DNA from: Salinarchaeum sp. Harcht-Bsk1
GTDB taxonomy: Archaea; Halobacteriota; Halobacteria; Halobacteriales; Salinarchaeaceae
Assembly: GCF_000403645.1 (NCBI RefSeq)
Contig: NC_021313.1
Span: forward strand, 248,001-312,000
Direction: 5' to 3'
DNA: 64,000 nucleotides
Below are positions 41,831 through 44,135 of this stretch, piece by piece. Position numbers and translations under genes: made by a program. Below the pieces are notes generated by a model. It was not told where the DNA came from. It saw nothing but the letters and a program-made list of their open reading frames with translations, and did not search any database. Positions within the stretch are counted from its first letter, which is position 1. The number at the start of each line of letters is the position of its first letter.

Positions 41831-42607
41831 TCAGCGCCGCGAGGAGAGGTGCTGGCTCAGTTTGATCGTGACCGTCATGAGCGACGCCGCGGTGACCACG
41901 ACGAAGACGGCGGCGACGGCGCTCGCGACGGTCGGAGAGGCGACGCCCAGCGCGAGAGCCGGTGCCACGAGTGCGCCGCCAGCGAAGACGAGGACGGGGA
42001 CGGTCTGGCGGAGGAGCGTGTCGATGAGAGTCCCGCGCGTGGCAGGCGTCCGACTTCGTCTGAACTGGAAGTAGAGCCCGTATCCGACGACGGTGAAGCC
42101 CGCTGCCGCGGTGAGGACCGTGAAGATGCGACTCCGACGAACGAGCGGCCCGACCGAGATCACGAGCACGATCGCCACGAACCCAATCTCGAGCGCACGG
42201 CGAAGTCTGTACTCACCGAGGCGATCGAGTTCGGCGTTCGCGAGCGTCGTGTTGAAGTATGCCTCCCGCATCGCCAACGCGAAGAGTACAGTGAAAGCGA
42301 GCAGGAGTCCATTCAGGAAATCGAGGCGGACGTCGAGCCAGTGCTGCAGCAGTGTGAAGCTACCGTAGAGCACCCCGACGACGCCCGCGAAGCCGAAGTA
42401 CTCCCACAGCGCCGCCTGGGGACGCGCGACGCTGGTACGCGTTCGGACGGCGAGAAACGTGAGGCGGAGGGAGAGCAGCGTTAGCATCGCGGCACCGACG
42501 ATCGAGACGACGGCAGTGCCTACGTCAGGTGCTGGGCTGGTTTGCAGTGGAGCGAGCAGCGGCTGGCCGGCGTGCTGGATCGGCTGGAAACTGGCCGGGG
42601 CGATCAT
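41831..42607 (-). CDS. Seven-helix membrane protein beside the pseudokinase
   Basis: A 258-residue protein with about seven predicted helices near residues 28-53, 67-91, 96-117, 138-156, 161-182, 202-223 and 226-250. The N-terminal 25 residues are a Pro/Gln-rich hydrophilic segment. There is no signal peptide or known enzymatic motif; I do not recognise a family. It lies 19 bases downstream of the HEAT-pseudokinase gene, in the same direction, so the two are likely cotranscribed. The start is the ATG at 42607, the first in frame after the upstream gene's stop. Confidence 0.75.
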   Translation of the reverse strand: MIAPASFQPIQHAGQPLLAPLQTSPAPDVGTAVVSIVGAAMLTLLSLRLTFLAVRTRTSVARPQAALWEYFGFAGVVGVLYGSFTLLQHWLDVRLDFLNGLLLAFTVLFALAMREAYFNTTLANAELDRLGEYRLRRALEIGFVAIVLVISVGPLVRRSRIFTVLTAAAGFTVVGYGLYFQFRRSRTPATRGTLIDTLLRQTVPVLVFAGGALVAPALALGVASPTVASAVAAVFVVVTAASLMTVTIKLSQHLSSRR

Positions 42608-42626: not shown

Positions 42627-43967
42627 TCATGTCCCGTCCTCGACCTCCGAGAGTGCGCTCTGCAGGTCGCGGGCGAACTCGTCGGCGCTCTCGTAGCGAG
42701 CGATCTTGTGGGTCGCCATCGCCTTGGCGACGATCCGATCGGCTGCGACGGGGACGTCCTCGACGACGCTTGAGGGCGGCTCGTAGGAGAGGCCGGCCGG
42801 ACCACCATGGGAGACGAGGGATTCTCGATACGGTGGTCGGCCGGCGAAGGCCGTGTAGAGCACGGCTCCGAGCTGATAGACGTCGGTGAGCCAGTCGACT
42901 GCACCGTGAGACGAGTCGAACAGCTCCGGTGCGGCGAACCTGGAATCGAGCGGGAGCGGGCCGTCCACGGCCTGGAACGCGTCGACGATCCCGAAGTTCG
43001 CGAGTTTGCCGACCGGGCGGCCCTGCTCGCTATCGAGCGCGATGCTGCGAGGATCGAGCGTCCGGTGGGTGATGCCCTTCTCGTGGGCGTGAGCGAGACC
43101 CTTCGCCGCGTCGAGGCCAACCCGGAGCGCCGCCTGGACCGGGAGGCGACCGACCGATCTGAGCGTACGCGGCGCATATCCGGTAACGATCCAGGGGTGT
43201 GGTCGGCGGCCAAAGTCGTGGACTGTCAGGACGTTCTCGTGATCGTCGACGCCGTCCCAGTCAGCGAGCACGTCCTCGAAGGCGCCGGAAAACGTCGAGT
43301 GGCGTGCGCCCAGAGGCGACCGGTAGGTCCGCACGAGTACGGCGTGGCGTTCCGCGTCGATGCCAGCCATGCCGGCATACGTCCAGGAGTGACGATCGGA
43401 CTCGACTGGCTCGACGATCTCGAGGGCGTCGAGGTCGGTCCGTGCGAGTTCGATGGTGAACTGGCCGTTCTGGACCACCTCGTCCGGTCGTTCGCGGATC
43501 GGATCGCCCGAATCGGTCGGGTCGTCGCTCGACTCTTCGTCGCGCTGTCGGTCTACGTCGTCGTCAGCGTCCGCCCCGGACTCCGAGCGTCCTGAAAGCT
43601 GGGTGGACGGCGATTCGTCGGCGGAGTCGGCCGGGTCGTCGGCGGAGTCGTCTGCGCTGGACGAGGGGGGAGCAGGGCTCGAGGCGGTCGAAGCCCCGGC
43701 GTCGACGTCTAGCTCTCGGCGGATCCAGTTCGCGGCCATCGCCGCGGTGTGGCCGTGGCGACCGTCGAGTCGGCGGACGATCACCGGCGCGTCCGCTGGA
43801 TGGGCTGTTGCCACGGCGCAGATCGCCCAGGCGACGCCGGCGCGGACCACCGGATCGTCGTGGTCGAGCGCGTCCACGAGCGCCGGAACGGCCTCGCGAG
43901 CGTCCGCTGGGGCGTCGAGCGTCCGGCGAATGAGGGCACGGACGCCCGGTTGATTCTCTATCGCCAT
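42627..43967 (-). CDS. HEAT-repeat protein with pseudokinase domain
   Basis: A 446-residue cytoplasmic protein. Residues about 1-85 form HEAT repeats (VPALVDALDHDDPVVRAGVAWAI). A Ser/Asp-rich linker (95-165) follows. Residues about 185-440 have a eukaryotic-type Ser/Thr kinase fold with conserved structural motifs (APEL at 346-349; DVYQLGAVLYTAFAGRPPY). Catalytic residues are gone: HRD reads HRT (301-303), DFG reads NFG (324-326), and the K-x2-N after HRD reads D-x2-S. It is probably a non-catalytic binding or scaffold protein. The ATG at 43967 starts just before the first HEAT helix. Confidence 0.88.
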   Translation of the reverse strand: MAIENQPGVRALIRRTLDAPADAREAVPALVDALDHDDPVVRAGVAWAICAVATAHPADAPVIVRRLDGRHGHTAAMAANWIRRELDVDAGASTASSPAPPSSSADDSADDPADSADESPSTQLSGRSESGADADDDVDRQRDEESSDDPTDSGDPIRERPDEVVQNGQFTIELARTDLDALEIVEPVESDRHSWTYAGMAGIDAERHAVLVRTYRSPLGARHSTFSGAFEDVLADWDGVDDHENVLTVHDFGRRPHPWIVTGYAPRTLRSVGRLPVQAALRVGLDAAKGLAHAHEKGITHRTLDPRSIALDSEQGRPVGKLANFGIVDAFQAVDGPLPLDSRFAAPELFDSSHGAVDWLTDVYQLGAVLYTAFAGRPPYRESLVSHGGPAGLSYEPPSSVVEDVPVAADRIVAKAMATHKIARYESADEFARDLQSALSEVEDGT

Positions 43968-44135
43968 GGCTGGCCGATGGACGGCGGTACGAACCCGATC
44001 GTTAAACCGTTGGTTGCCCCGAGCCCGATATCGGCCGGAATTCGGCGGTGTCCCGCCCCAGCGAGGCGTGGGCCCCGATCGATTGCGGACGAGATGGAAT
44101 CGGGTGCTCCGGGTGGCGGTGCTCCGTAGCGTCAC

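Follow-up and report, generated by a model that had tools for sequence, protein, structure and literature searches.

Mycobacterial PknB and staphylococcal Stk1 are active protein kinases that carry extracellular PASTA domains. Bacteria also possess proteins, such as EssB/YukC and MviN, in which a kinase fold without catalytic residues acts as a membrane scaffold or adaptor (PMC12599244). In the review of bacterial pseudokinases that covers them, HEAT repeats are absent and archaea come up a single time (PMC12599244). Archaeal signalling outside the two-component and chemotaxis systems is little known. Haloarchaea do encode Hanks-type kinases with an N-terminal HEAT region and a C-terminal kinase domain, and microbial rhodopsins and GPCR-like proteins cross the membrane with seven helices, the N-terminus outside and the C-terminus inside. 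Here we describe a haloarchaeal gene pair in which a HEAT protein with a degenerate kinase domain is encoded next to a seven-helix (7-TM) membrane protein.

The gene pair of Salinarchaeum sp. Harcht-Bsk1

The window, the whole stretch of 64,000 nucleotides that was analysed, comes from a genome consisting of a single contig of 3,255,260 bp; the sister genome used for comparison was that of Salinarchaeum laminariae. The first-pass annotation had reported two open reading frames, 19 bases apart, and both were recovered; the two share a strand, and the 7-TM gene follows the kinase-like gene after a 19-bp gap. Both flanking genes lie on the opposite strand, with a divergent Elp3-like gene on the upstream side and a convergent gene for an S1/OB-fold protein on the downstream side, so that the kinase-like and 7-TM genes form an isolated unit. 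The features of the locus are:

42627..43967, minus strand: gene of the putative HEAT-pseudokinase, 446 aa
43710..43949, minus strand: N-terminal HEAT-type helices (residues 7-86); HEAT_2 E 2.3e-5; five helices, pLDDT ~80-92
43437..43697, minus strand: acidic, disordered linker (residues 91-177); pLDDT 30-48; fast evolving
42636..43436, minus strand: kinase-fold domain (residues 178-444); Foldseek E 3e-13 to Stk1; Pkinase E 1.9e-10
43059..43067, minus strand: HRT replacing HRD (H301-R302-T303), from sequence; column never D in 46 paired members
43044..43046, minus strand: Ser308 replacing the catalytic-loop Asn, from sequence
42990..42998, minus strand: NFG replacing DFG (N324-F325-G326), from sequence
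41831..42607, minus strand: 7-TM protein gene, 258 aa; helices at residues 29-57, 62-91, 98-124, 130-151, 159-185, 194-221 and 225-257
43994..44018, minus strand: upstream block including TTTAACG, ~33 bp before the kinase ATG, from comparison with the sister species

The TTTAACG block hardly differs between the two Salinarchaeum species, whereas much of the sequence around it does. Such conservation amid divergent surroundings is consistent with a promoter, and the block, just upstream of the kinase gene, is the probable promoter of the two-gene unit.

As modelled, the window protein retains a protein kinase fold. The Pkinase family matched residues 243-382 above the Pfam cut-off, and a Foldseek search of solved structures with the kinase-domain model placed Stk1 on top (TM 0.77 by target length), followed by PknB. 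The HEAT part is a short region of five modelled helices whose HEAT_2 match (25.1 bits) falls below the Pfam gathering score (27.7), the HEAT regions of homologues being longer.

The catalytic-loop stretch of the window protein reads T-H-R-T-L-D-P-R-S, and A-N-F-G is also present. The replacements noticed originally, HRT for HRD, NFG for DFG and Ser308 for Asn, are unambiguous in the sequence. Compared with active relatives, the protein also lacks the Gly-rich loop and carries Arg for the beta3 Lys and Val for the alphaC Glu, the latter two assignments depending on the alignment. Every feature of an active Hanks-type kinase that we looked for (HRD Asp, beta3 Lys, alphaC Glu, Asn, DFG Asp and Gly-rich loop) was absent, and the sequence gives good support to the classification of the protein as a pseudokinase whose catalytic residues are gone. 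It is the sole Hanks-type domain over the Pfam cut-off in its own genome. We also considered an anti-phage defence kinase (PD-T4-6, MAD6 or PglW) and rejected it; the PADLOC matches were limited to the generic kinase region, the active site is absent, and the protein scored 72.5 bits against MAD6 (cut-off 460) and 39.6 bits against PglW (cut-off 990).

About seven membrane helices had been proposed for the neighbouring protein, and its AlphaFold2 model has seven (mean pLDDT 85, pTM 0.80). Loops 1 and 5 and the C-terminal end carry positive charge, which points to an N-out/C-in orientation. No Pfam or NCBIfam family matched this 7-TM protein, none of 18 members of its family rose above noise in Pfam, and a profile search found no solved structure. 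Foldseek with the model returned GPCRs and rhodopsins on top, weakly (best E 7e-3, TM 0.4-0.69); the modelled topology agrees with the rhodopsin/GPCR type, at a score that any seven-helix bundle could reach. Homology to rhodopsins was rejected, as the protein has no match to PF01036 (Bac_rhodopsin) and no Schiff-base Lys. The only conserved K/R of helix 7 lies at its cytoplasmic end, not at the mid-helix position of the retinal Lys.

Conservation within the 7-TM protein is one-sided. Among the top 20% of conserved positions, all 15 polar or aromatic residues fall in the cytoplasmic half, leaving the outer half with none (Fisher p 2e-5). With all 7-TM positions taken as a class the bias is less sharp, since the observed value is reached by 15 of 224 circular shifts. 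A conserved cytoplasmic half with a free outer half is what a constant output side and a variable outer side would produce. The cytoplasmic face lies around W68, Y70, R114, Y176-G177, G192-T193, D196, R200 and Q252. Stand-alone 7-TM relatives without a kinase also have a cytoplasmic bias, which is weaker (19 vs 9), and the bias therefore identifies the cytoplasmic face as the side that does the work and is no proof of kinase docking. These stand-alone proteins (L092-L106, 255-272 aa) form a branch found mainly in family f8 and keep R114, T193, R200 and Q252. The conserved MREvYY motif of helix 3 was proposed as a docking site from its loss in the orphan 7-TM protein of genome G181, and was rejected because many paired members of family f4 (Haloferacaceae-type) have lost it too.

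Conservation of the pair and loss of the active site

A profile of each protein was used to search 293 haloarchaeal genomes, all from the order to which the window belongs. The kinase-like gene lay directly upstream on the same strand in 68 of the 72 strong 7-TM matches, with order, strand and spacing kept, and the adjacency on which the original proposal depended is strongly conserved. The four exceptions comprise two genomes that carry both genes apart on the same contig (G018 and G146), one with the 7-TM gene at a contig end (G164), and G181. At the G181 locus (L087:5361-6107) the kinase neighbour of the orphan 7-TM gene is missing from an otherwise similar site. Among 46 pairs read in detail, a possible 7-TM start codon overlaps the kinase stop in 33 (-1 to -11 bases), which suggests coupled translation. 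We saw no fused kinase-7-TM protein among the loci read. In the Halorussus loci L041, L044, L052-L054 and L133 the intergenic gap measures 350-650 bp and sometimes holds a small annotated ORF on the opposite strand; the Halorussus pair often resides on megaplasmids.

The surroundings of the pair vary by family. In Salinarchaeum it is flanked by the Elp3 and S1/OB genes. Genomes of the Halobacterium type, the only family with a transporter context, have an ABC transporter set beside it together with a glycosyltransferase-like gene; Halorussus and Haladaptatus have a HalX response regulator, and many f4 loci a sensory rhodopsin with its transducer. That the pair stays intact while its flanks change is good evidence for a functional link; the 68 paired cases share descent and are not independent, and the several unrelated flanks are. 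Three Haladaptatus loci (L121, L124 and L125) have a broken or shortened kinase gene beside a 7-TM gene that has itself become shorter, which looks like joint decay of the two partners.

Substitution rates between the two Salinarchaeum species were low at nonsynonymous sites. The kinase domain gave dN 0.118 and dS 0.837 (dN/dS ~0.14), and the HEAT part and the 7-TM gene had ratios of ~0.19 and ~0.21; in the linker of the kinase-like protein dN was 0.67 with dS saturated. The low ratios indicate that both genes are maintained under purifying selection, and together with the recurrence of the same order and strand they show that the pair is not due to chance. When 197 genomes from across the phylum were sampled, matches were confined to this order, and they were confined to haloarchaea in a scan of 84,980 species with a restrictive pattern. 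A viral origin of the pair was considered and rejected, no relative being found in viral contigs.

The HRD Asp is absent from all 46 paired kinases, where the column holds G (33), A (9), S (2), T (1) or C (1). The beta3 Lys is mostly Arg in these proteins and the alphaC Glu mostly Ala, and the HRD site tends to HGG or HGA, a pattern that speaks for constrained substitution and not random decay. The DFG Asp is kept as DWG in several families. We examined whether an alignment shift could give back the catalytic Asp through D305, two residues past the site of the HRD Asp, and rejected it because this position is Asp in only 21 of the 46 paired members (H, R, T or S in the others) and the site is without other catalytic residues. 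Paired members that do have this Asp are mostly without the DFG Asp.

Homologues with an intact active site, which would have spoken against a pseudokinase family, do exist and form a separate, unpaired branch. All 16 active-type relatives have the HRD Asp, which is true by definition of the group, and they keep the Asn as well. The active type (HLD...N, DWG), including HEAT-kinases such as that of L107, never adjoins a 7-TM gene in the loci read, and three label changes suffice to account for it in the tree. The free tree splits the paired group; the tree constrained to hold the paired group and the closest unpaired pseudokinases as one clade was 9.7 log units higher, and this topology was not rejected (p-AU 0.66). 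The 941-aa L107 kinase (L107:4676-7501) retains its active site and contains many near-identical HEAT repeats in an extended series; beside it lies a kinase with PQQ-like repeats in inverse orientation. Two f4 genomes that carry the pair encode a second pseudokinase as well, one (L109:4510-5910; HGG, NVG) with no adjoining 7-TM gene of the family and the other at G291:C1:664082-665407.

Possible function of the pair

The prospects are about even, in our judgement, that the pair is a membrane signalling module made of a 7-TM sensor or anchor and a non-catalytic HEAT-pseudokinase adaptor. The two genes would be expressed as one transcription unit. The 7-TM protein, N-terminus out and C-terminus in, would serve as sensor or membrane anchor, and the cytosolic HEAT-pseudokinase would use its kinase fold to dock at the conserved cytoplasmic 7-TM face, from which it may relay the state of the 7-TM protein by a change of shape or by exposure of its HEAT part, with no phosphorylation. 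The presence of a sole Hanks-type domain in the genome argues for a scaffold, not for a regulator of another Hanks kinase. Against the sensor and adaptor stand the weak match to the GPCR/rhodopsin fold, the bias seen in stand-alone 7-TM proteins, the less sharp bias over all 7-TM positions, and genomes G181, G018 and G146. A more specific form, offered tentatively, is a split, non-enzymatic haloarchaeal receptor in which a 7-TM sensor of an undescribed family has a dedicated HEAT-pseudokinase bound at its cytoplasmic face and acts without phosphorylation through a separate partner, as GPCRs do.

The 7-TM protein could instead be a transporter, channel or membrane enzyme, with the HEAT-pseudokinase as a cytosolic regulatory or assembly subunit and no further signalling output. 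Pseudokinases of bacterial membrane machinery are known, among them EssB/YukC and the pseudokinase domain of MviN (PMC12599244), and the pair adjoins an ABC-transporter gene set in Halobacterium-type genomes; that neighbourhood, however, occurs in one family only, the 7-TM protein matches no transporter or enzyme family, and its outer half has no strongly conserved polar residue, some of which would be expected for transport or catalysis across the membrane. We regard this as unlikely, and place the sensor and adaptor ahead of it because of the conserved cytoplasmic half and the lack of a second Hanks domain. It is improbable that the pair assists in phototaxis or light sensing by working with a sensory rhodopsin and its transducer. 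An MCP transducer gene does lie divergently and directly beside the kinase gene in 13 of the 21 f4 loci read (L067-L069, L073, L074, L078-L082, L084, L085 and L089; at a distance of ~150-240 bp in those with both ends called), a sensory rhodopsin gene follows in most of them, and two more loci have a transducer one gene off; one rhodopsin and one transducer from f4 were confirmed in Pfam. Yet this neighbourhood is found in one family only and looks inherited, the block is without rhodopsin and transducer in L072, L075 and L083, genomes G001 and G246 carry the pair without any rhodopsin gene, and the only rhodopsin of the window genome is at G000:C1:422130, against ~290000 for the pair.

Two further readings concern the kinase domain itself. 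It might still be an enzyme with a rearranged site, by phosphotransfer through another residue or by AMP transfer, in which case the name pseudokinase would be wrong. Catalytic residues can migrate in pseudoenzymes (PMC10211241), and the Asp two residues past the HRD site in 21 of 46 members, the window protein included, and the DWG of several families would fit. The replacement Asp is not conserved, however, its bearers mostly lack the DFG Asp, and the losses extend to the Gly-rich loop, the beta3 Lys and the alphaC Glu, which leaves an enzyme quite improbable. Many eukaryotic pseudokinases act as allosteric partners of an active kinase, and the haloarchaeal protein might do so for an active Hanks-type kinase that shares its cell, the 7-TM protein providing the anchor. 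Some pair-bearing genomes also have active-type relatives, such as G108 with L110; against this, neither the window genome nor G001 has another Pkinase match over the cut-off, so no Hanks-type partner is obvious in either; the role is unlikely in the window genome, and overall we consider it very improbable.

The receptor-plus-scaffold interpretation of the first-pass annotation is thus partly supported. The dead kinase and the pairing are well supported, the lack of catalysis is predicted from the sequence, and the receptor role and the docking are what we infer from them. A dead kinase fold has been kept under selection beside a family-less 7-TM protein in dozens of haloarchaeal genera. If the two proteins bind each other, they would provide a compact, genetically accessible example of pseudokinase-only signalling, and a defined family in which an active kinase lineage is seen becoming a scaffold.

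Comparison with known systems

The pair is a real, conserved and undescribed two-gene module. It had been thought new from the start, and we found no description of such a pair in the searchable literature, where subscription journals are thinly covered and absence is weak evidence; the public records carry the generic names 'HEAT repeat domain-containing protein' for the kinase-like protein and 'hypothetical protein' for the 7-TM protein. The nearest intact relatives of the kinase domain are the haloarchaeal HEAT Hanks-type kinases of the L107 type, which have the same domain order and differ in keeping their catalytic residues (GQGGNADV, IAIK, HLDLKPEN, DWG), in falling on a separate branch and in having no 7-TM neighbour. 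PknB and Stk1 offer the best solved structures by both sequence and fold, whereas the window protein keeps none of their catalytic residues. The 7-TM protein resembles microbial rhodopsins and GPCR-like proteins in overall topology, and differs from them in lacking a Pfam match and a conserved mid-helix retinal Lys in helix 7, with a weak fold score. The likeness to EssB/YukC and MviN would lie in the use of a dead kinase fold at the membrane; in those proteins the fold is fused to or carries a membrane segment, whereas here the membrane part is a separate 7-TM gene and the soluble part bears HEAT helices.
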